From: Thraustochytrium sp. TN22
Lineage: Eukaryota > Sar > Bigyra > Thraustochytrida > Thraustochytriidae
Assembly (NCBI GenBank): GCA_013306675.1
Contig: JABLUY010000042.1
Location: forward strand, 114,595 to 178,594
DNA length: 64,000 nucleotides
Direction of reading: 5' to 3'
Below the pieces are notes generated by a model. It saw only the letters and a program-made list of their open reading frames with translations. It searched no databases and was not told where the DNA came from. The position numbers were made by a program, and so were the translations under genes. Below are positions 10,659 to 57,047 of the stretch, one piece after another (positions within the stretch are counted from its first letter, which is position 1; every line of letters starts with the position of its first letter).

Positions 10659-13600
10659 TCAGGCGCTCCTGCGACGGCGCTTGTTGCCCTCGGCCCCGGC
10701 ACGCGTCACGCGCCGCTTCGCAGACGCGGGGGCCGGCACGAAGTCACCATCGCTGTCGCCGTCGCCCGCAGCGCTATTGGCCTCGAGGAACTCGTCATCA
10801 TCGTCATCGTCATCTTGCTCATGGATGAAGCCGCCATCGTCGCCGTCGTCATCGTCGCTGCCGTTCACGTCCACAGCCGCGCCGCGCGTCGTCCGGCGCC
10901 GCGCGGAGCCACGGCGCACGGAGACCGCGGTGGCGACCGCGGTGGCGGAGTCCGCCGCGTCCGACGGAGCGGCAGCAGTCGCCGCAACAGCGGATGGCGC
11001 CTCAGCGGGCGCTGCCGGTGCTGCCAGGTCGCCGGCAGCGGCGGTGGCGGCGTAGTGGCGCGCCCTGTCGTACTCGATGGTATCGAGGAAGGCGGCAGAG
11101 GATGGAAGGTCCTTCGTGATGGGGATGAGACGGTTCGCTTCGATCTTAAGCGGCTTGTTGGGCGAGCTGCCAACGCCAATGAGCTTGGAGTCTGAGTTGC
11201 GCATGTAGCGCTCGGGCGTGAAGACGATGAGCTTGCGCTTGTTGCCGTAGCGCACCAGATACGGGCGGTTCAAGTGGACATGGAGGGGCTCCGAGGCAGC
11301 TCCTGCGGGCGCCGAGCTCGAGGACGCGACGCTGCGCGCGTCCGATTGCGCGCCGGCGGAGGAGTGCATGGAAGGGACGGGCGAGGCGCGGCGCGAGGGC
11401 GGGTCCGAGTCAGGCGGCATCGCGCTGGTCACTGCGGCGGTGCTGACCGGGATGGGCGGGGGAGGCATCGTGGGCGAGATGGCACCCGTGTCGGGCTCAA
11501 GGCGCGGCTTGCGCTGCACGCCACTAATGACGTCGCGGAGGCGCTCGAACTCCCGGCGCGGGTTGTCGATCCAGTTGGCGGGCCAAACCTGAAAGTACTC
11601 GTAGCCGAGCTTCTCGAGCATGGCCTTGCGGTAGATGTTCTGGCGCGAGCTGTCGTAGGAGTTGCACTGGATGACGAGCGCACGCTGGTTGGAGAGACGC
11701 ACGAGAATGCCCTGGAGCAGCGACGTGGTGTCGTTGATGCGCTCCACCGTGGTGGTGCGAAAGGAATTTGGGCGCACGAGCTCCTCGTAAATGACCCCCT
11801 CAAGCGAGGCGTTGTTGGAGGCAACATTGGCCAGGGCGGCGGTCTCGTCAATGGCAAACTCGCGCAGGAGCGCCTGCGCGCGCTGACGGTTGTTGGTGCT
11901 GATGGCGTTGGCGTAGGACAGGTAGCCGAAGAGCATGGACTTGCCGCCGAGCACGCCACCCTCGTCGAGCTCGCGCTCTGGCGAGAGGTATTCGACCTCG
12001 GGGATGCTTGTGACAACGTAGACCTTGACCTTGGCGCGCGAGAAGAGCACGTTGAGGTAGCGGTAGCCGACGCCGGAGAAGGCGATGCGGCCGAAGCGGC
12101 GCTCGAAAGTTCCGCGCTGGTTAGGGCCGAAGGTGGTGCCGATGATGAGGACGTCGACCTCGTCGCCCTGGAGGTTCTCGAGGTTCTTGACGAAGAGCGT
12201 CTGGCGGTTCTGCATCGAGCGCACGTCCTGCACGAAGGCACGATCCGGGTGGTTCTTGAGCACCTTGAGGATGTGCTTCTTCTGGACCTCGTTAAAGGTG
12301 GCGACCGCGACAGTCTGCGCCGGGTTGCGCACGAGCGGGCGCAGCAGGGTGGCGATGACCTCGGCCTCGCGCTGATTGTGCTGGTCCTTGTAGATGCCGG
12401 CGGCCGGGATGAGCTGGATGGCGGGCTCGGCGGAGGAGCGGGTGGGGCGCTCTGGAACGAGCGAGAGCGTCGGGTAGATGGCGGCGCAATGGAACTTCAT
12501 GAGGTCCGGATTGAGGCTGCGGTAGTGGAAGCACAGGTCAATGGAGCGGAAGGAGAAAGAGTGCTCCTTGGCGTAGTCGAGGAGCGACTCGGCGTTGGCG
12601 GCATTCCGGCGGCTGCGCAGCGCCTGCATGCGAGACGCGGTCGAGGTGGGCACGCCCGGGTCGGCGTCCTCGTCGTTGTCCTCGTCCGCGAGCGCGTCGA
12701 GGTCCGCGGCGTGCGCGAGCTCGTCGATGACGTGCTCTCCCCCCTCACCTGCGCTGAAGAGCGTCGTGGGCGGCATCTGCTTGTTGTCGCCGGCGATGAC
12801 GACCTTGCGGCCCTTGAGCAGGGCGGCGTAGGAGTCGTGCGGCAGGCTCTGCGAGGCCTCGTCGAAGACGACAAGGTCAAAGGCCTGCGACTTGCCGGCG
12901 AAGAGCGTGCTGGCCACGGCCGGCGTGCAAAAGATGATGGGAAAACAGCCGCAGAAGAGCTCAAAGTCGCCGACGAGCTCGCGCAGCGAGTTGAGCTGGA
13001 TGTTCTTGCCCTTGCGGTTGTAGAACTGCTCAAAGCGCAGGCGGCCCTGGCCCTCGAAGATGCGCACGCTGCGGGCCATGGCCTGGCCCTGGCGCAGGCA
13101 GAAGAGCTTCTGCACCTTGGACTGGATCTGCTTGAGGGCGTCGCTGAGCTGGTCCAGCACGAAGTCGGAGGTAATGAGGCGCTTGCACTTGGTCTCGAGC
13201 TGGCGCGCCAGCACGCAGAGCTTCATACGTGCGCCCCAGGTGAGCTTGTCGACCTTGCCGGCCTCGATGAAGTCATGGAAGAAGCTCTCGTTCTGCACGA
13301 CGCCGAGCTCCACGAGGCACTCGATGGAGTCGGCAGCCTGGCGCCATCGCCCGAGATTCTCGTGGCGGAAGAGCTTGAGCTGCGCCTCGAGGCCCCACTG
13401 CGCCTCCTTGCAGCCGGGGATGTCGAGACAGGGCGCCAAGGCGTCGAGCGCCGTCTTGGTGGAGAAGACCGAGCGCTGCAGCGCCTTGCTCATGTCCTCG
13501 CGCAGCTCGCGCACCTTTGCGAGGCCGCGCTTCTGCACGGCCGGGTTGTGAGTCCAGGCGTCCGCGGGCGACATCTTCTCGAGCGCGACAAGCTCGATGC

Positions 13601-15815
13601 GCACGCGGTCGTGGATGCTCTTGCACCATTTGGCGATGCTGTCGATATTTGACAGCGTGAAGTTGATGGGCATGGCAATGTCGCGGGCCACGCTCTCGGT
13701 GCTGCTGTCCGTGAGCGCCGTGCTGATGGAGGCGGGTGGAGAGGCAGCGGAGTCAGGGTGGTCCGTGGCCCCGGCGGCCTCGGCCCCGCCCGCGGCCATC
13801 TTGTGGCGCTGCTCCATGAGGAGGACGTCGTCCCGGATCCGCGTAAGTGCATCGCGATAGTAGCGCAGGCGCGTTTGCGCGGAATTTGAGGAGCGATTCA
13901 AGAAAGGAAGGTACCTGTCGAGCCAGGAGGGCGAGTCGTAGCGCTGAACCTCCTCGGGCGGGATGCCCGTGATGTTGTCGCGGATGGAGCTGATCTCCTC
14001 GAGGTAGTTCTTCCAGAGGCGCTCGCGCCCGCGCAGGTCCTCGAGCACCTCGCGCTTGGCATCCTGGACGACGCTCTCGCGGTCCTCGAGGCGGCGGCGC
14101 AGCACGGCGATGAGGTCAGAGGCCTTGGCGGAGAGCATATCGGGGTCGAAGTTGGCGGTCTGGTCGAGACGCGCGAAGTTGACAAAGGCGAGCGCCTGGA
14201 GGAGCTCCGGCTTGAGGCTCTCCTGACAGCGGTCCAGGCGCATGAGGTGGTCCGGCGCGAAGATGCACTCCAAGAAGGGCGCGCTGTCGGGCGGCGCCAG
14301 CACCTTGGCGCCATGCAGCTTACGCTGCACGACAAAGGCAACGGCCTCGCGCACCGCGAGGTTGAAGGCCACAACCTCGTTGTTGATCTCGCAGTGGCGA
14401 GCAAACTTGTGCTCCTCGCTGGCGATGACCTTTTCGAGGCGGCGGATCTCCTGCATGAGAATCTCCTCCTCCTTGGCGTAATCCGCCAGAGGGATGGCCT
14501 CGACGTCGGTGCGGTTCTGACGCGCACGGGAGACGAGCGCCTCGCGGTCCTGCACGTTGGTGATGAGCGCGGTGAACTTGTCGCCGGTCCAGTCGCGCCA
14601 GCGCAGCTCGGCGAGCTTGCGCTGGAGGATCTCAAGTGGCGTCTTCTTTTCGCACACTACGAGCACGCGCAGGCCGTTGGCGCCGGCGCACGAGAGCACG
14701 GAGGCGAGCGTCTGCGACTTGCCCGTGCCAGGCGGCCCGTTGATGACAAGGTTGCGGTCCTGCGCGAGCTGACGCACGGCCTCGAACTGGCTCGGGTCCA
14801 GCGCCAGGCCGCCGTGCAGCACGTGCGAGGACTCCGGGGAGGCCGACAGCACGGGCCCACTGCCGAGCGCGAGCCTGCCCTGGCGCTGACACGCGCGCAG
14901 ATCCTTGAGGATGGCGTTGTTGCCCGTCTTGAAGAGCGCGAGCATGGCGGCCCACGCCACGCGCCGCACCACCGGCGCCGCCGCGGAGGCCGCACCGGTC
15001 GTGGATGCCTTGCGGGCGTCACCGCCGGCCCCGCCGCTCCCGAGCCGCGCCTGTTTCTTGCTCAGCGCGCTTGCAGGTACGCGCTCGGGCAGATCCCGCA
15101 CACTCGGGTCCATGACGCGCCGCAGCGCCTCGGTAATCTCGTCTCGCGAAAGCGCCGTGGCCTTGGGCATGGCCTTGGCCAAGATGCCGACCAGGTTCTC
15201 CACGTCCACCTCGTTGATGTAATCCTTGTATCCGGCGTCCTCGGACTTGAGCTTGACGTCGGCCTCGGCCAGAAGAAAGTGAACAAGAGCCGGGTTCAGC
15301 TCCACCGGGTCCTCCGCATCGCGCCGTAGCACGAAGCGCCCGTTGACCAGGTCCAGGCGCACCTTCCAGAGCACGAGCGGCGCCAGGTATGCGCGGTCCG
15401 CGCGGTCCTCATAGCACTCCACGAGGGGAAAGCCCAGTCGCAGGAGGTCCACGCCGAAGTCCTTGCGCTCCTCCTTGCCGCGCTGCACGAGCGCCTCGAG
15501 CTGGCGCGCTGCCTGCGTGGCCGTGGACTGCGCCGACTTACCTGGCGGCTTGGCGCTCAGCTTAACGTGCACCTCGCCGGTGGTCAAGAGCGAGCGCATC
15601 ACGTGGGTAGCTAGGTCCTCGCCGCCCAGGTCGCCGCCGCCGCCGCCGCCCGCTTCATCCGCCTCCAGCGCCACGTCGGGCCACAGGCGCAGCTGGGCCA
15701 GGTCGAACTTGGTCGCGGACTTGCCGTCCGCGAAGCAGCGCATGAAGTTCGACTGCTTCGCATCGCCGCGCAGCTTGGCCACCAGCTCCTCCACGAAGGC
15801 TTCCTCGCCCGCCAT
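10659..15815 (-). CDS. DUF4011-type SF1 helicase with C-terminal MTES_1575/Vsr-like nuclease fold
   Basis: Predicted 1718 aa from the ATG at 15815; the frame is open to 16037, but the sequence before MAGEEAF is low in protein character. The N-terminus carries the DUF4011-like strand YLAPLVLWKVRLD near 140. The SF1 helicase core has Walker A GPPGTGKS (360-367), Walker B FDEAS (984-988), motif III GDNKQMPPT (1009-1017), a YRS motif near 1095, LFVKNLENLQGDE near 1206-1218 and motif VI SRAK (1259-1262). All are characteristic of the large AAA_11/AAA_12 helicases of bacteria, several of which act in phage defence. Residues about 1375-1425 match the REase_MTES_1575 (Vsr-like) fold. The tail has a separate conserved-looking stretch (about 1513-1560), an acidic run (about 1652-1672) and a final KRR/KRRRR cluster suggesting nuclear import. 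It is likely a nuclear nucleic-acid helicase. The gene is intronless. Confidence 0.88.
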   Translation of the reverse strand: MAGEEAFVEELVAKLRGDAKQSNFMRCFADGKSATKFDLAQLRLWPDVALEADEAGGGGGGDLGGEDLATHVMRSLLTTGEVHVKLSAKPPGKSAQSTATQAARQLEALVQRGKEERKDFGVDLLRLGFPLVECYEDRADRAYLAPLVLWKVRLDLVNGRFVLRRDAEDPVELNPALVHFLLAEADVKLKSEDAGYKDYINEVDVENLVGILAKAMPKATALSRDEITEALRRVMDPSVRDLPERVPASALSKKQARLGSGGAGGDARKASTTGAASAAAPVVRRVAWAAMLALFKTGNNAILKDLRACQRQGRLALGSGPVLSASPESSHVLHGGLALDPSQFEAVRQLAQDRNLVINGPPGTGKSQTLASVLSCAGANGLRVLVVCEKKTPLEILQRKLAELRWRDWTGDKFTALITNVQDREALVSRARQNRTDVEAIPLADYAKEEEILMQEIRRLEKVIASEEHKFARHCEINNEVVAFNLAVREAVAFVVQRKLHGAKVLAPPDSAPFLECIFAPDHLMRLDRCQESLKPELLQALAFVNFARLDQTANFDPDMLSAKASDLIAVLRRRLEDRESVVQDAKREVLEDLRGRERLWKNYLEEISSIRDNITGIPPEEVQRYDSPSWLDRYLPFLNRSSNSAQTRLRYYRDALTRIRDDVLLMEQRHKMAAGGAEAAGATDHPDSAASPPASISTALTDSSTESVARDIAMPINFTLSNIDSIAKWCKSIHDRVRIELVALEKMSPADAWTHNPAVQKRGLAKVRELREDMSKALQRSVFSTKTALDALAPCLDIPGCKEAQWGLEAQLKLFRHENLGRWRQAADSIECLVELGVVQNESFFHDFIEAGKVDKLTWGARMKLCVLARQLETKCKRLITSDFVLDQLSDALKQIQSKVQKLFCLRQGQAMARSVRIFEGQGRLRFEQFYNRKGKNIQLNSLRELVGDFELFCGCFPIIFCTPAVASTLFAGKSQAFDLVVFDEASQSLPHDSYAALLKGRKVVIAGDNKQMPPTTLFSAGEGGEHVIDELAHAADLDALADEDNDEDADPGVPTSTASRMQALRSRRNAANAESLLDYAKEHSFSFRSIDLCFHYRSLNPDLMKFHCAAIYPTLSLVPERPTRSSAEPAIQLIPAAGIYKDQHNQREAEVIATLLRPLVRNPAQTVAVATFNEVQKKHILKVLKNHPDRAFVQDVRSMQNRQTLFVKNLENLQGDEVDVLIIGTTFGPNQRGTFERRFGRIAFSGVGYRYLNVLFSRAKVKVYVVTSIPEVEYLSPERELDEGGVLGGKSMLFGYLSYANAISTNNRQRAQALLREFAIDETAALANVASNNASLEGVIYEELVRPNSFRTTTVERINDTTSLLQGILVRLSNQRALVIQCNSYDSSRQNIYRKAMLEKLGYEYFQVWPANWIDNPRREFERLRDVISGVQRKPRLEPDTGAISPTMPPPPIPVSTAAVTSAMPPDSDPPSRRASPVPSMHSSAGAQSDARSVASSSSAPAGAASEPLHVHLNRPYLVRYGNKRKLIVFTPERYMRNSDSKLIGVGSSPNKPLKIEANRLIPITKDLPSSAAFLDTIEYDRARHYAATAAAGDLAAPAAPAEAPSAVAATAAAPSDAADSATAVATAVSVRRGSARRRTTRGAAVDVNGSDDDDGDDGGFIHEQDDDDDDDEFLEANSAAGDGDSDGDFVPAPASAKRRVTRAGAEGNKRRRRSA

Positions 15816-17397
15816 GCTGGCCTGCCTCTCGTCGGCGAGCGCGAGCGCGAGCGACGTGGGGAGGCGAGGCGAGCGCGGCGGGAGCGCAGTTGGCCGAGCA
15901 CGTCGCCGCGTCGACTCGAGTGCCGATTCGGTCAAGACGCCCGCCGGCCGCAGGCGCTGTCGCGCAGTGCGGCCGACGGCGGGCCCCGCGTCGCGGACCG
16001 CCGCCGCTGTCGGCTGTTGCCGCCGCCGCAACTGCACTGCACTGCACTGACGACGACGGCGAGCAAGCTCTGCGCGTCGCGGAACCTGCTCTGCTTTATG
16101 TCGTCAAACGTACCATGGTATAAAACAGAGGCGGTGGTAGGCAATACGCAACAAGCAAATGCCGAAGAAGAAGAAGAACTGATGAGTTACAGAAGTCTCA
16201 AGTGCGCGCTACTGACAAATGAGGACGAGAAGGACCGCGACGCGCAGAGCTTGCTCGCTCACAGCTGTTGAGCGAAAGCTGTGCGCGGTGGTGGAAGACT
16301 TTTCCCAGTGAGGGCGTCGTTGATAGAACAAGGGGGCAAAGGATTTGTTTTTATAAAGCCGCGCACGCAGCCGCAGCCCGGCCCTCGACGCGCGTGTCCC
16401 GTGTACCACGGGCCACGTGCCGCCGTGATCACATACATTCCCACGGTGATGTGTTGAGTCCGACTGACTGTGACGCCATGTGTCTTGCGAGAACAATGTG
16501 GTCTGAGCCGATCGGCAGCCCCGAGCTTGTTGCTTGCGAGCTTGCTGCTTGCGAGCTCTACTAAGCGCTTGCGCACTCACGCCATGCATGTTCGCGGATC
16601 GCTCGGTGTCGCTCTTGGCTTGCCTCCGTCTCGTGACGATCATAATCCGCGAGCTGCCAAGCCAGGGCTGGGCGCCCCGGGTGGCGGGCCGGCCGGCCGG
16701 CCGGTCCGGGTGTGCGATCGACCTCGAGTCGGACCTGTTGTCCGTGCAGTGCAGTGCAGTGCAGTGGTGCCTCCGTGCCTGCTCCAAGTCCACTGCGCCT
16801 CCGCGCGGCGCCCTCCGAGTCGAGCCTCGCTGGGCACCGCAATCTCCGCCGATTCTCCGAAGCACAAGAGCACTGGCTGGCAGTGCGTCCGAGCAGGCAG
16901 CTTCGCGCAGACGCGCAGTTGCCCTCGCCTCGCTGGCCGGCGCCGTGCTGCGTCTGCGCCCTGGCCGCCGCACTGCACTGCACTGCACTGCACGCGCCCG
17001 CATTGTCGGCTTGCTTGGGTTTGCTTGGGTTTGCTTTGCTTTGGTATCTTGGCCTGCAGTGGCTGTCACGGTGCTGGCGCCAGTCCGAGTCGGATCCTGC
17101 GGCAGTGCTCTGGTCGTCTGCAGCGCCGTGCTGGTGGACGGAGCCGCGGAGAGGGCCGGGAGAGCTGACGGCGGCCGCCTCGACGCAACTCGGAGGCGAC
17201 GCGACGCGAGCAGCGGCAGAGCCCGAACGCAGGTAGGTGCGCGGCGGCGCGGCGGCGCGGCGCGGCGCGGCGCGGCGCGGCGGCGGCGGCGGCGGCGGCG
17301 CGGCGCGGGACTGACGGCGAGGCGCGGCGCGACGCAGAGCAGACAGGCAGGCAGCAGCAGCAGCAGCAGGCAGGCAGGCAGCAACCAGGAGGAGAGG
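15816..17397. promoter_or_regulatory. Divergent intergenic region with (GTGCA)n pentamers
   Basis: 1.58 kb between the helicase and aspartate aminotransferase starts. Pentamer runs of the same sequence occur at 16027-16047 and 16974-16992 (ctgca orientation) and at 16745-16765 (tgcag orientation). A (cag)n/(caggcagg)n run at 17341-17385 and a (gcggc)n run at 17240-17300 precede the aminotransferase ATG. Long open frames cross the region on both strands but have the biased composition of GC-rich non-coding DNA. Confidence 0.5.
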
Positions 17398-18633
17398 ATG
17401 GGGCAGACGCAGCAGAGCGGCAAGGGCGGGGCGGTCTCGTTCGAGACGGTGAAGCAGGGCCCGCCCGATGCGATCCTGGGCGTGAAGACGCGGTTCCTGG
17501 CGGACCCGGCGGCGGATCGCGTGAACGTGTCGGTGGGCGCGTACCGCGACGGGAACGGCAAGCCGGTGGTGCTGGAGGTGGTGCGCAAGGCGGAGCAGAT
17601 GATCATCGAGGACAAGTCGCTGAACAAGGAGTACCTGGCCATCGCCGGCGACGCCAAGTTCTGCCAGGCGACGCAGGAGTTCTGCTTCGGCAAGACCGCC
17701 AAGGCGGTGCAGGAGAAGCGCGTGGCCACGGTGCAGGCGCTGTCCGGCACGGGCGCGCTGCGCGTGGGCGCGGAGTTCCTCAGCACGCACTTCCCGGGCC
17801 GCAAGGCGTTCATCCCGAACCCGACGTGGGGCAACCACTTTGCCATTTTCGGCAACGCCGGCGTGGAGACCGCCAAGTACACCTACCTGAACCCGGCCAC
17901 GCGCGGCCTCGACTTTGACGCCATGCTGTCGGACCTCAGCAAGGCGCCGGCCGGCAGCATCGTCGTGCTGCACGTGTGCGCGCACAACCCGACCGGCGTG
18001 GACCCCACGCACGAGCAGTGGCAGAAGGTCGCCGACCTCGTGCAGGAGCGCGATCTGCTGCCCTTCTTCGACTCGGCCTACCAGGGCTTCGCCACGGGCG
18101 ACGTCGACGAGGACGCCTACGCGGTGCGCCTCTTCGAGAGCCGCGGCATGCAGATGCTCGTGGCCCAGTCCTACTCCAAGAACATGGGCCTCTACGGCGA
18201 GCGCATTGGCGCGCTCAACGTCGTCTGCCCCTCGCCCGAGGCCTGCACGCGCGTCATGAGCCAACTCGAGCTCGTCGTGCGCCCCATGTACTCCAACCCG
18301 CCGCGCCACGGCGCCGCCATCGCCGCGCTCATCCTCACGGACGAGAAGCTGCACGCTGAGTGGCGCGTCGAGCTCAAGGCCATTGTCGACCGCATCCTCG
18401 AGATGCGCAAGGGCCTGCGCGCCGCCATCGAGGCCACTGGCGCCCCGGGCGACTGGAGCTTCATCACCGACCAGATCGGCATGTTCACCTACACCGGTCT
18501 CAGCGCCGATCAGGTCGCCTCCATGGAGAAGAACTACCACATCTACATGCCATCAAACGGCCGCATCAGCGTCGCCGGCCTCACCAGCGACAAGCTCGAG
18601 CATGTCGCCAAGGCCATTCGCTCCGTCCTCTAA
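17398..18633 (+). CDS. Aspartate aminotransferase, class I
   Basis: Predicted 411 aa, the usual length of fold-type I aspartate aminotransferases. It transfers the amino group between aspartate/oxaloacetate and glutamate/2-oxoglutarate using PLP. Visible signatures: VSVGAYRDGNGKP near 43, LSGTGALR near 117-124, the PNPTWGNH segment near 141, the AHNPTGVD loop near 196-203, the PLP Schiff-base lysine K261 in SYSKNMGLYGERIG, the phosphate-contacting arginine of that motif, and the C-terminal GRISVAGL with the substrate-carboxylate arginine. The ATG at 17398 directly precedes conserved sequence (MGQTQQS). No mitochondrial or plastid presequence is evident, so the cytosol is the simplest location. 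The frame stays open upstream to 16534, but that portion is promoter-like. Intronless. Confidence 0.95.
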   Translation: MGQTQQSGKGGAVSFETVKQGPPDAILGVKTRFLADPAADRVNVSVGAYRDGNGKPVVLEVVRKAEQMIIEDKSLNKEYLAIAGDAKFCQATQEFCFGKTAKAVQEKRVATVQALSGTGALRVGAEFLSTHFPGRKAFIPNPTWGNHFAIFGNAGVETAKYTYLNPATRGLDFDAMLSDLSKAPAGSIVVLHVCAHNPTGVDPTHEQWQKVADLVQERDLLPFFDSAYQGFATGDVDEDAYAVRLFESRGMQMLVAQSYSKNMGLYGERIGALNVVCPSPEACTRVMSQLELVVRPMYSNPPRHGAAIAALILTDEKLHAEWRVELKAIVDRILEMRKGLRAAIEATGAPGDWSFITDQIGMFTYTGLSADQVASMEKNYHIYMPSNGRISVAGLTSDKLEHVAKAIRSVL

Positions 18634-19375
18634 CTTGGAACTGACCAAGTTCGAAAGAGGCAACATCAAGCTTGACCCGAGGAGCCAGCGATCTCTCGCG
18701 CTCTCTCTCTCGCTCGCTCGCTAAAGCGCATCGAGCGGGCGCTGATTGGAGCGAACGAACATGCCAGCGCGATCGAGATCCACAGGAGAGCAGGCGGCTG
18801 CTCCGTTTGCTGCCATCCCATCATTTCACCTCAATTTCTCAAAGTTGAATTCATTTCTCTGATGCCCATCTTCGCTTGCCGTTGCCGAGGAGCAACACGT
18901 TTTGAGCAGACGCGTGGGCGGCCGATCAAGCGAGCAGATGCGGCGAACGCACGGAGATGAGGTCTCTTCTGGGAGACAGGACATAAATGAACGCGATGAC
19001 AGAGGAGCGATCGCATCGCGCATGTCCGCACGTGAGAGAAGCCAACGCGTGCTCGCATTTCATTTGTGCAGCCCGTCACCCGCAGGACCTTGCGCTTCTT
19101 GCGCACAACACACAGTCCTGCCTTGTGCTTCTTCTTGCGCAAGTCTTTGGCACTTGCCACAGTGCCGTAGTAGTACCCGATGTCACAATGTGGTCGTCTG
19201 TGACCCTTCAACGGATCGGCGTGGCGCCGACCGAGCGACTCGGACCGCGGTACCGCGGTGGCGGTGATGTCGTGTCGCTGACGCTTGGCTCGGCAAGACT
19301 CCGAGTCTGGCCGTGCGCGCGCCTAGGTCGCGTGCAGCGCAGCGCCAGGCGCTCGCACCTGCGTCGGGCCTCGCG
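18634..19375. other. Intergenic, no gene recognised
   Basis: 742 bp between two plus-strand genes. A (ctcg)n/(tctc)n run lies at about 18690-18723. The rest is mixed sequence of lower GC than the genes and carries no protein-like frame. It should contain the polyadenylation region of the aminotransferase and the promoter of the ODAD3-like gene. Confidence 0.5.
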
Positions 19376-22780: not shown

Positions 22781-25531
22781 TCACCCAAAGAGGATGAACA
22801 TGGTGAGGCGATCGCGTAGGTCTGCGACGGACATTTGGTTGATGAGATCCTCGTCGTCGCTGCCGAGGCGCACATTGGCCGCTGCCACGTAGAGGTCCCT
22901 CAGCGAAGCGCCGCCGACGAACTCCTTGGTGAACGCGACGGAGCGGCAAAAAGCCTCGCGCGACGGGCCCGAGTACTGGCGCACGCCGCGGAGGAAGCGG
23001 CACTGCTCGCGGGCGCTCCAAGGGCGCGTGATCTCAACGAAGCGATGGCCCTTGCGCAGCGCCCTCTCGAGGGCGGCCTCGAGGTGCTCCTTGCGCGAAA
23101 CGTCGGCCGCGAGGCCGGCATCGTACTCAGCGCGGCGCTCCTGCATGCCTGCGAGCGCCTCGGTCTGGCCGGCGGTGTGCAGCGCCATGGCGACGATCTT
23201 GTCCATAGGGTGGGAGCGCGCCGGGGCGCGCATGACCCTGTGACGGCAGATGGGGCAGTTGAGCGACTTGGCGAGCCAGTGGTTGATGCACGGCTCGCAG
23301 AACATGTGGTTGCAGTCCAGGGTCGACGTGTTGAGTAGCGGGTCTTGGCAAATGGGGCACACCAGCTCGGAGCAGATCTCCGCGATGCCCGAGGAACCGC
23401 GGCGCGTCGTGGCACTACCGGCCTTGGCGTCGGACTTGGAGTCCACCGAGTTGGCGCGCCGTTGCACCGCGGCGGCGGCGGCGGCCAGCGTGGCCTCGGG
23501 CGGTGGAGCCGCGACCGCGCCGGGGGGGGTCGCACCAGAAGCAGCACCAGCAGCAGTCACCGCCGCAAGCATGGGAGGTGGCATGGACCCGTGACTTGCG
23601 GTCGAGGTCGTGGACACCTTGCGCTGCAGCATGGCTTCCGCGGCCGGCGACGCGCACACGTTATCGTCTGTGAGCGGCATGTAGGCAAGCCGCTCGCCAG
23701 ACTGGCTCACCTGCGGCTGCAGCGCGTTCTGTGGCTCAAGCCCCAGCTGCGATTGGACTTGCTGTTGCCGCTGTTGTTGTTGTTGTTGCTGCTGCTGCTG
23801 CAATTGCGAGCTCTCCTCGTACGCTTTTTGCGTTTTAGTGACGGCATCGCAGGCCGCGGTCATGGCAGCCATGACCTCCTGCTGATCGCGGCAGCCGGCC
23901 GCCTTGCAGAGCGCGTTTGCATGGGTCTTGACCATGCGTACAATGCTCGAGAAGGGGCAGTCAGGCGGGCCATCCTGCATCGGCGCGTGCACCTCCTCTG
24001 TGCTGGTCACCTTGGCAGGGACGGCATGCATGACATTTTCCTCCTTGGAAGTGTGCGGATGATGCTGGCCGTGGTGACTGTGGCCGTGGTGGGGGTGGTG
24101 GTGCTTATGGCGATGGCGATGGCCATCGCCGTGATGACCGCCGCTGCCGTGGCTGCCACCGCCGTGGTGGTGGTGGTGGCCGTGATGATGTTGACGGTGA
24201 TGGTGGTCGGCGTGGCGAGATGCTTCGTCGTGGATGGACGCGGCGTGCGCGAGAGGGAGCGGGACACTGTGCGGGTATTCCTCCGGGCAATGCGCCGGCT
24301 TGGAGTCGGCCTTGGAGCACACCGACTCGGATTCGCAGGAGTTGTCACGTGAGCGCAAACGGCAGATCTTGTTGCGCACGGAAGCGAAGGGCGCCCCGCA
24401 GGATTTGTCGGCGCCCGGGGAGCGGCCACGCTTCATACAGGCGCGAAAGGAGCAGCTGCCGCTGGCACCGCTGTTGTCGGTGCACGCTTGAATAGCCTGG
24501 GCGCAGGAGCCCCAGCCGAAGAATTTGACAGTAGAAGGCTGCGAGGGAGAGCTTTCCTTGGGGCACCAGCGCTTGCGAAAGGAGCCGCAACGCGAGGCCG
24601 AGGACGAACAAGACGAAGACGTGGAAGACGGAGCGGCGGGCGCTGGTGCCGGTGCCGGTGGCGGCGGCGTGCAGGACATGGACATGGATTGCGAAGATGA
24701 CGACGACGCGCACGCCGGCCCGTCCGGACCGCAGCAGGCGCCGCAGGAGGCGCCGCACGACGCGCCGCAGTCCGCACCGCACGCGGTACCACAGGGAGCG
24801 CTCGCCCCTGGTGCAGCGGACTCGTTCAGGCTGAGCGAGGCCAGGCTGGGGTCCGAGGTCTTGGGGCCGACGCAGGCGCAGGCGCCAGCGGCCGGGTTGC
24901 TGCAGCAGTCGGGCGCGGATGGCTGCGACTGCGAGACGTGCGCCTGGGTACCCGAGAAATCATAGCCGCGCTCGCCGCGCTCGTCGTCCTCGGACCCGAA
25001 GTCGGCCTCGCTTGCGTCGTCATCCTCGCAGTCCAAGGCCTGGTCGCGGCGGCCGAGCGAGGCGCCGCCCGTGGCGCCGCGCGAGGCCGCTGGCAGCGCG
25101 GCAGGCTGCGCGACGAAGCGGTACTGCAGCATGCCGCCGAGGGAGCGCCGCGCGCCGAAGCTGACGATGTCGTTGTGATCGAGCGGCACGGACTGTCGCG
25201 CTGGGAGGCGGCTCTCGTTGACGTAGGTCCCGTTGGTGCTGCCCTCGTCGCAGATGGTCCACGAGGGCGGCCCAGCGTCGTTGGAGAAGCGCGGCGCGAG
25301 TGTGGCGTGCCTGCGCGAGAGCACCTTGGGCAGCGCCTGGAAGCAGACATCGCTGCGCTCCGGGTGCCTGCCGAGCGAGACGGCGGCCTCGTTGAGCTCG
25401 ATGACCCTGGGAATGTCCGCCGGCTTTCCGTCCGGCAGCGCGGGCACGCCAAGAAGCTCCAGCCTCGCGTGCGCGCCGCGCGCGGCGGCCGCTGGCGCCG
25501 CCCTGGCGCCGCCGGCCGCCTGCGCCTCCAT
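22781..25531 (-). CDS. FHA-RING protein, probable E3 ubiquitin ligase
   Basis: Predicted 916 aa. An FHA domain occupies about 40-135 with the phosphothreonine-binding set GR (54-55), SRRH (72-75) and GSTNGT (97-102). A C3HC4 RING finger lies at C725, C728, C740, H742, C745, C748, C759 and C762. FHA plus RING is the arrangement of CHFR and RNF8, which ubiquitinate targets found through phosphothreonine in mitotic checkpoint and DNA-damage signalling. The order and RING type match, but no other CHFR/RNF8 part is recognised. Between them lie a Cys/Gly/Ala-rich repeat (about 250-285), a striking His/Gly-rich stretch (about 437-490) that could bind metal, and a poly-Gln run (about 580-595). The last 90 residues are conserved-looking and helical, ending LFG. 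A 25582 ATG in the same frame is an alternative start. Confidence 0.85.
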   Translation of the reverse strand: MEAQAAGGARAAPAAAARGAHARLELLGVPALPDGKPADIPRVIELNEAAVSLGRHPERSDVCFQALPKVLSRRHATLAPRFSNDAGPPSWTICDEGSTNGTYVNESRLPARQSVPLDHNDIVSFGARRSLGGMLQYRFVAQPAALPAASRGATGGASLGRRDQALDCEDDDASEADFGSEDDERGERGYDFSGTQAHVSQSQPSAPDCCSNPAAGACACVGPKTSDPSLASLSLNESAAPGASAPCGTACGADCGASCGASCGACCGPDGPACASSSSSQSMSMSCTPPPPAPAPAPAAPSSTSSSCSSSASRCGSFRKRWCPKESSPSQPSTVKFFGWGSCAQAIQACTDNSGASGSCSFRACMKRGRSPGADKSCGAPFASVRNKICRLRSRDNSCESESVCSKADSKPAHCPEEYPHSVPLPLAHAASIHDEASRHADHHHRQHHHGHHHHHGGGSHGSGGHHGDGHRHRHKHHHPHHGHSHHGQHHPHTSKEENVMHAVPAKVTSTEEVHAPMQDGPPDCPFSSIVRMVKTHANALCKAAGCRDQQEVMAAMTAACDAVTKTQKAYEESSQLQQQQQQQQQQRQQQVQSQLGLEPQNALQPQVSQSGERLAYMPLTDDNVCASPAAEAMLQRKVSTTSTASHGSMPPPMLAAVTAAGAASGATPPGAVAAPPPEATLAAAAAAVQRRANSVDSKSDAKAGSATTRRGSSGIAEICSELVCPICQDPLLNTSTLDCNHMFCEPCINHWLAKSLNCPICRHRVMRAPARSHPMDKIVAMALHTAGQTEALAGMQERRAEYDAGLAADVSRKEHLEAALERALRKGHRFVEITRPWSAREQCRFLRGVRQYSGPSREAFCRSVAFTKEFVGGASLRDLYVAAANVRLGSDDEDLINQMSVADLRDRLTMFILFG

Positions 25532-25683
25532 CGCGCGCGCCGGCGGCGTCCCCGCCCGGGCCGGCCGGGGTCCTGCCGCCACGCGCCGCGCTCCTTGCGT
25601 GTCTGCCGAGCGCCTCGCTCCTCGCGCCTCGCCGCTCTCCTCGACCCGATCGATGCCCGCGCGCCTGCCCGCCTGCCCGCCCG

Positions 25684-55917: not shown

Positions 55918-56090
55918 CGCTCGGACCTAGCGACCACTGCCATTTCCGCGCAAAGGCCGGGCAAGCCGCTCAGCTGCAGTGCACAATTTGAAAATGCACA
56001 AGTGCGCGCGCGGCTTGCGCACATGGCTGGCACGGCAGATCGCAAATCAACCTGAACTTGGAGAAGTACGTCAGCCTGCACCGAACAACC

Positions 56091-57047
56091 ATGACGGCGG
56101 GAGGCGACGAGGACGTGGACGTGGACCAGACGACGGCAACGGCCGCGGCAGCCGCGACGCCCAAGGCCAAGGCCAAGGCCAGGACCAAGACGAACAAGGC
56201 GGAGGCCGCCGCGTCCTTCGAGGTGCCTGCGACGCCGGCGTCAGTGACGGCGTCCGAGACCGCGAGCGTGGGCCAGGCCAGCGAGCACGAGGGCAAGCCG
56301 AAGAAGAAGGCCAAGGGCAAGGCGGCCGACGTGGAAGCGACCGTGCTGGCGTACTTGAGCGCGCAGTGCAGGCCGTACAACTCGACCAAGGTTTTTGAAA
56401 ACCTGCACAAGGCCGTGCCGCACACCGCCATCAAGACAGCGCTCGCGGCGCTCGCTGCGCAGGGTACTCTGCAGGAGAAGGTCGAGGGCCGCGCGGCACT
56501 GTACTGGGTCACCCAGGAAACCGAGATCGGGTCCGCGGAGGACCGCGCCGCCGAGGTCGCCGCCCTGACAGCGTCCGTCTCCGTCGCGCTCGAGGCGCTG
56601 CAGGAGGCCGCGGCGGACCTTGCCGGGCAGCAGGCCGAGGTGGCGCGTCTGCAGCGCGAACCGGCGGACGACGACTTGGACGGCGCCCTGCGCGAGGCGC
56701 AGGAGCTCGCGATGACCCAGCGCGCCGAGATTCAGAGCCTGCGCGCGGCCTGCGCCGCGGCACAAGCAGGCGACGACATTCGCTCCGTGCAGGATCTGAC
56801 AGCGGAGCGCAAGTTCTTTGAGGTAAGATTCGAGCACGCACGCGCGGCGCGGCACAGCACACTGAGCAGAGACACTAACGGGCGACCGCCACCGCAGTCC
56901 TGCGCACGAGACCGCATGCGCATCGTGCAAGCGGTGCTGGAGAACATGGCCGACGGCGAGAACCGGCCCGTTGCCGAGCTCCAGGAGACGGTCGGCCTTG
57001 TCACGGACGAAGCAGCCGCAGCGATGTTGCCCAAGGCCGGCGCGTAG
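56091..57047 (+). CDS. HOP2: Homologous-pairing protein 2 (HOP2/PSMC3IP), with one intron
   Basis: The two exons (56091-56822 and 56898-57047) give 293 aa. HOP2 works with MND1 to load RAD51/DMC1 for strand invasion in meiosis. Residues 1-75 are a Lys/Ala-rich extension, longer than in other HOP2 proteins. The winged-helix TBPIP domain (about 80-140) has VLAYLSAQCRPYNSTKVFENL, then IKTALAALAAQGTL and KVEGRAALYWVTQ, the family pattern. A coiled coil follows (about 145-240). The C-terminal segment MRIVQAVLEN..ENRPVAELQETVGLVTDE fits the conserved end of HOP2 and lies in exon 2. The intron is in frame and has no stop, so an unspliced reading also works. Start at 56091 (accATGacg); another in-frame ATG lies at 56058. 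Confidence 0.85.
   Translation: MTAGGDEDVDVDQTTATAAAAATPKAKAKARTKTNKAEAAASFEVPATPASVTASETASVGQASEHEGKPKKKAKGKAADVEATVLAYLSAQCRPYNSTKVFENLHKAVPHTAIKTALAALAAQGTLQEKVEGRAALYWVTQETEIGSAEDRAAEVAALTASVSVALEALQEAAADLAGQQAEVARLQREPADDDLDGALREAQELAMTQRAEIQSLRAACAAAQAGDDIRSVQDLTAERKFFEVRFEHARAARHSTLSRDTNGRPPPQSCARDRMRIVQAVLENMADGENRPVAELQETVGLVTDEAAAAMLPKAGA
56823..56897 (+). other. Spliceosomal intron in HOP2
   Basis: 75 nt beginning gtaaga and ending accgcag, with a branch-like ctaac about 25 nt before the 3' end. Splicing joins GAG to TCC and restores the usual HOP2 spacing between the coiled coil and the final domain. Its length is 25 codons without stop. Confidence 0.75.

Follow-up and report, generated by a model that had tools for sequence, protein, structure and literature searches.

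How did a gene of bacterial type come to lie in the nuclear genome of a thraustochytrid, and what could its product do there? The question is raised by a long gene in the window, a stretch of 64,000 nucleotides of Thraustochytrium sp. TN22 (contig JABLUY010000042.1 of assembly GCA_013306675.1, positions 114,595 to 178,594). The gene encodes a DUF4011-type superfamily 1 (SF1) helicase with a degenerate nuclease domain. An initial annotation, made from the letters alone, had described it as a bacterial-type helicase-nuclease and had suggested that it was acquired by transfer and then adapted to the nucleus. With moderate confidence, we favor the reading that a bacterial helicase-nuclease was captured, passed on by vertical descent and pared down in the host to a translocase that is nuclear and associated with chromatin. 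Our literature searches turned up no description of the gene.

The motor motifs are intact and the nuclease residues are lost

The minus-strand frame between 10659 and 16037 was open for 1792 codons, and translation starting at the ATG at 15815 gave 1718 amino acids with no intron, in agreement with the initial annotation. The proposed DUF4011/AAA_11/AAA_12 architecture was recovered by hidden Markov model search using Pfam, in which AAA_11 (69.5 bits) and AAA_12 (30.8 bits, cut-off 27) both exceeded their cut-offs; the DUF4011 match covered only positions 72–158 of the 158 in the profile, namely the C-terminal half (Table 1). At least one DUF4011 match was present in the host assembly (37.9 Mb, 453 contigs). 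The motifs of an SF1 motor (I–VI) were intact, and the glycines and lysine of Walker A did not vary in alignment A3 (17 rows). When six related proteins, described below, were compared, the mean pairwise identity was 0.63–0.69 for the motor parts versus 0.40 for the insert between motifs Ia and II. The region of motifs II–VI contained an acidic loop (approximately residues 1031–1068), outside which the mean pairwise identity was 0.67 and 0.63. These facts of the sequence are near certain. Because the required motifs are all there, the motor should hydrolyze ATP and translocate on nucleic acid.

The MTES_1575/Vsr-like part of the initial annotation was upheld as a recognizable fold but not as an intact domain. 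Its score in the window protein (23.6 bits) was below the cut-off of 38.2. Four related proteins (P0002–P0005) scored 24.8–31.0 bits, and the bacterial-type protein P0122 scored 78.9 bits. In an alignment census, the position of the key aspartate was occupied by glycine in all six members and by an acidic residue in all 299 bacterial-type rows. The ECDGxxYH segment was also broken in the members of the clade, and the window protein possessed QCN where bacteria have ECD. We assigned the catalytic residues from their conservation and from the general pattern of the PD-(D/E)XK fold. Since these residues are gone, the protein should not cut DNA in the manner of MTES_1575 enzymes, and the idea of a working nuclease is not supported. 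Separately, in 42 of the 299 bacterial-type rows, for example L022 (Chryseobacterium) and P0155, the second aspartate of ECDG was lost and the first acidic position was kept; an independent drift of the site in some bacteria is possible.

Table 1. Positions in the window of the helicase gene, its parts and the adjacent gene.
Feature	Position	Strand	Remarks
Whole gene, DUF4011-type SF1 helicase with degenerate nuclease domain	10659..15815	-	1718 aa, intronless
DUF4011 region, residues 97-181	15273..15527	-	Pfam PF13195, 33.0 bits, cut-off 22.2
Walker A / motif I GPPGTGKS, residues 360-367	14715..14738	-	motif present
Long insert, motif Ia to motif II, residues 441-930	13026..14495	-	limits set by eye
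Motor motifs II-VI, residues 931-1290	11946..13025	-	DEASQ, AGDNKQMPP, HYRS, QGDEVD, LNVLFSRA
Degenerate MTES_1575/Vsr-like nuclease domain, residues 1336-1435	11511..11810	-	catalytic Asp to Gly; ECDGxxYH to QCN
C-terminal domain, about residues 1512-1595	11031..11282	-	predicted Tudor/PWWP-like barrel and helix; recognizable in six members
Low-complexity tail, acidic runs and terminal basic cluster	10662..11030	-	putative nuclear localization signal
Aspartate aminotransferase	17398..18633	+	neighbor, divergently transcribed from the adjacent helicase

Six related proteins form one clade

When residues 60–1460 were used as a query against about 5.8 billion proteins, 3943 of the 7996 scored proteins matched at E ≤ 0.001, so the match is not due to chance; 120 homologues were listed. 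Five proteins stood out, namely P0002 (59% identical, 1794 bits), P0003 (48%, 1327 bits; filed under Durusdinium trenchii), P0004 (46%, 1247 bits; an MMETSP/EukProt transcript), P0005 (44%, 1218 bits) and P0006 (43% over 75%, 881 bits; short at its N-terminus). Among the matches listed, the score then fell to 326 bits, and P0007–P0121 were of bacterial type, with Bacteroidota as the organism names given. A second search using the six-member alignment returned P0002–P0005 at 2429–2621 bits, values inflated by their being part of the profile, and the next protein at 550 bits; P0006 was outside that listing. PF13195 matched P0003 at exactly 22.2 bits and did not match P0002, P0004 or P0005 at E ≤ 0.001. 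We label all six as eukaryotic: the genome is the reason for the window protein, the source for P0003 and P0004, a linked aminotransferase for P0005, and for P0002 and P0006 only their position in the clade. No Hondaea protein was found among the listed rows of either search; the gene may have been lost, its model may be split, or the search may have missed it.

In a quick tree of 48 hand-chosen rows (6 eukaryotic and 42 bacterial-type, the latter from 33 of 79 loci and 9 of 224 proteins), the six eukaryotic rows formed one clade, set apart by a branch with 100% support; its stem measured 2.0 changes per site. P0122 and P0123 were nearest to this clade (98%). A second quick tree comprised 32 hand-chosen rows, with P0006 left out and two plasmid DUF4011 or DUF3320 proteins as the outgroup; within the ingroup (100%), an open fork separated the five eukaryotic rows (100%), P0122 with P0123, and the remaining bacterial rows.

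The relatives outside the clade are mainly from Bacteroidota

A scan of GTDB genomes confirmed at least 474 relatives among 591 stretches. The best 80 were kept and 79 loci were typed after frame extraction, in which four viral loci and one other yielded no frame. The typed loci were from Bacteroidota (69), Ignavibacteriota (4), Pseudomonadota (3), Kiritimatiellota, Mycoplasmatota and Roizmaniibacteriota (1 each). Acquisition by transfer, as initially proposed, was the best explanation for the presence of an SF1 helicase of the bacterial DUF4011 type in a eukaryote. These sequences are most simply read as the outcome of a single old transfer from bacteria to an ancestor of the lineages sampled, in which we infer the direction.

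We found no viral carrier: when IMG/VR was scanned with the six-member alignment, 4 of 168 stretches were confirmed (25–28% identity), and two phage records matched the bacterial-type query P0122 (22–28% identity). Descent from a known eukaryotic helicase family was also considered. The match to TIGR00376 (the IGHMBP2/SMUBP2 family) scored 65.5 bits, under its cut-off of 348.9; Sen1 and NAM7 were matched by sequence only weakly, and no protein bearing the name of a known eukaryotic helicase family appeared among the 120 listed homologues. The profiles of two bacterial DUF4011 proteins, ProA (NF058533) and Hhe (NF042953), scored 294.1 and 212.2 bits, respectively. Such descent is thus unlikely, as judged from profile scores and the listed homologues rather than from a tree.

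The Bacteroidota helicase-nucleases with a GreA/GreB domain (for example, P0072 of Tenacibaculum, P0092 and L024 of Arenibacter) share with the window protein SF1 motifs I–VI, an acidic loop after motif III and a Vsr-like fold at the equivalent place, and DUF4011 was scored in some of these proteins. In contrast to the window protein, they keep the active-site aspartate and ECDGxxYH, and they end in GreA/GreB where the window protein has the predicted barrel and the basic tail.

The C-terminal domain and tail

GreA/GreB was listed in 92 of 115 bacterial-type rows and was absent from the window protein. When the C-terminus was compared with 58 bacterial ends picked by motif, hhalign returned a probability of 0.1; a GreA/GreB remnant was therefore rejected. 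Pfam contained no family for the C-terminal domain, and PDB searched by sequence gave matches at the level of chance only (E 0.05 and up). Structure prediction weakly suggests a Tudor/PWWP-like barrel. Domains of this (Royal) group can bind methylated lysine or arginine through an aromatic cage; aromatic residues recurred at some columns of alignment A4. The acidic runs and terminal basic cluster of the annotated eukaryotic-style tail were present; the basic cluster is possibly a nuclear-targeting signal.

The gene lies among eukaryotic genes

Of twenty neighboring frames that were scanned, 13 matched no Pfam family at E ≤ 0.0001. By type, the neighbors were eukaryotic: adenylate kinase, WW-ankyrin, aspartate aminotransferase, ODAD1-type coiled coil, FHA-RING, Hop2/TBPIP winged helix and short-chain dehydrogenase. 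The GC content of the helicase gene (0.669) and that of its third codon positions (GC3, 0.888) were inside the ranges of seven neighboring frames (0.66–0.70 and 0.80–0.96), so the compositional likeness initially reported was confirmed. The FHA-RING protein (22781–25582, minus strand), three genes from the helicase, has the domain pair seen in RNF8/CHFR, and the Hop2/TBPIP frame (56058–57047, plus strand) is of a meiotic protein type.

The adjacent aminotransferase shared 84% identity with its counterpart in the thraustochytrid Hondaea fermentalgiana, 80% with one MMETSP transcript and 70% with a transcript of MMETSP0098. The latter is the clam parasite QPX, according to an excerpt of PMC6011583. 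A careful tree was built on 34 rows, namely the window aminotransferase and 33 of the 120 listed homologues; the former grouped with Hondaea and the first of these MMETSP transcripts (96/94), separate from the green-lineage rows. Another aminotransferase, P0246, was on a long branch within a 19-row group (100/100) that included the window aminotransferase. P0246 and the helicase P0005 come from the same source, and each lists a longest contig of 111725 bases; thus, the helicase–aminotransferase pair is probably linked on one contig in the genome of P0005 as well. Further, an aminotransferase filed under D. trenchii (P0235) branched next to Hondaea and related sequences (support 94/89 with P0234, 89/95 for a six-row group, neither starred). 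The assembly of this coral symbiont therefore probably contains labyrinthulomycete DNA, which is also the probable source of helicase P0003.

Proposed role and alternatives

We propose that a DUF4011-type SF1 helicase-nuclease from a mainly Bacteroidota subfamily entered the nuclear genome of a thraustochytrid or labyrinthulomycete ancestor and has since been passed on by vertical descent. Its motor would have been retained there, and the Vsr-like nuclease would have lost its catalytic residues and kept its fold. A new domain, predicted to be Tudor/PWWP-like, and an acidic/basic tail lie where many bacterial relatives carry GreA/GreB. The product is most probably an ATP-driven translocase or helicase on nuclear nucleic acid, acting at R-loops, stalled forks or transcription-replication conflicts. 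Because the nuclease fold is kept and the barrel is new, binding and tethering roles are suggested: the dead nuclease domain could serve as a surface for binding or docking, and the barrel could tether the protein to chromatin or a partner. The evidence suggests that the protein was re-used to drive movement in the nucleus and not to cut DNA in defense; that it is an ATPase, where it resides, what it acts on and what it does are points that we infer. If so, the gene would be a compact, testable example of a bacterial helicase-nuclease rendered both harmless and useful in the nucleus by a single transfer, a single broken active site and a single end-domain exchange. It would also offer a before-and-after comparison between bacterial relatives that keep the active site and several descendants that have lost it. 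A bolder version, which we regard as doubtful, is that of a new eukaryotic nuclear machine, in which a phage-defense-type helicase-nuclease became a chromatin-tethered, nuclease-dead motor, exchanged a GreA/GreB-like, RNA-polymerase-type anchor for a Tudor/PWWP-type chromatin anchor, and polices foreign or conflicting nucleic acid in thraustochytrid nuclei.

FANCM, whose motor belongs to superfamily 2, is likewise a eukaryotic protein with a kept motor and a dead nuclease domain. The likeness is one of analogy only, because FANCM has an XPF-type nuclease and a motor of another class than that of the window protein. Excerpts of PMC3905867 state that translocation may be the chief activity of FANCM and that, together with FAAP24, it holds the Fanconi core complex on chromatin. 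The same excerpts weigh against our proposal in one respect, namely that the dead nuclease region of FANCM does not itself bind DNA.

Bacterial contamination or an assembly chimera could explain why, among the matches listed, the closest proteins outside the clade were of bacterial type. However, both flanks carry eukaryotic genes, GC and GC3 are host-like, the aminotransferase has thraustochytrid kin, and five more proteins, one of them a transcript, share the lost residues. We therefore rejected contamination by bacterial DNA and consider this explanation close to negligible; the eukaryotic nuclear setting of the initial annotation stands. It is also very improbable that the gene is a functionless, decaying relic: the catalytic nuclease residues are missing, but 1718 codons are open and the motor motifs are conserved in members only 43–59% identical to the window protein. 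A UPF1/SETX-type function on RNA or RNA-DNA hybrids, in which the dead Vsr-like fold would bind RNA, seems rather improbable to us. Nothing decisive opposes it; in SF1, DNA and RNA substrates are not distinguished by sequence. The anti-phage relatives probably act on DNA.

An antiviral or anti-transposon factor, whose motor would recognize foreign or replicating nuclear DNA and strip it, stall it or recruit nucleases through the C-terminal domain, is unlikely in our estimation. In its favor, related profiles are named for the anti-phage proteins Hhe and ProA, with which the window protein shares a wider family and a similar domain order, and the PADLOC candidate system profile PDC-S37 scored 287.5 bits, with no cut-off stated. 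Hondaea may also be without the helicase. Membership of an anti-phage system is not supported: the Hhe and ProA scores were far below the cut-offs of 2000 and 1500 bits, respectively. Further, the nuclease residues are gone in all six members, and the conserved motor and the probable aminotransferase linkage in a distant relative resemble a stable function. If the protein still restricts viruses or transposons, it would demonstrate that motor activity alone suffices for a defense enzyme in eukaryotes. A further point in favor of this reading is that amoebae are reported to have acquired a bacterial immune gene by transfer, in an excerpt of PMC13142454, which describes TirBCD of Dictyostelium, also a bacterial immune-type gene captured by a protist. 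According to that excerpt TirBCD stayed active and toxic, in contrast to the window protein with its lost nuclease residues.

The bacterial neighborhoods were sampled through ten genes at seven hand-chosen loci. One of the ten was recognizably of defense type, a MukB-like gene three genes downstream of the relative L010, in a Wadjet-looking set. The other nine were DUF4236, DUF2130, BRCT, NA37, transporter, RtcB, WYL regulator, DUF6371 and UvrC genes, several of them without known function. Because the scanned neighbors were mostly not of defense type, the subfamily is not plainly linked to defense islands. At the L010 locus (12240–18807), four downstream genes were in a Wadjet-like arrangement, and the third, MukB/SbcC-like, was the sole one scanned.
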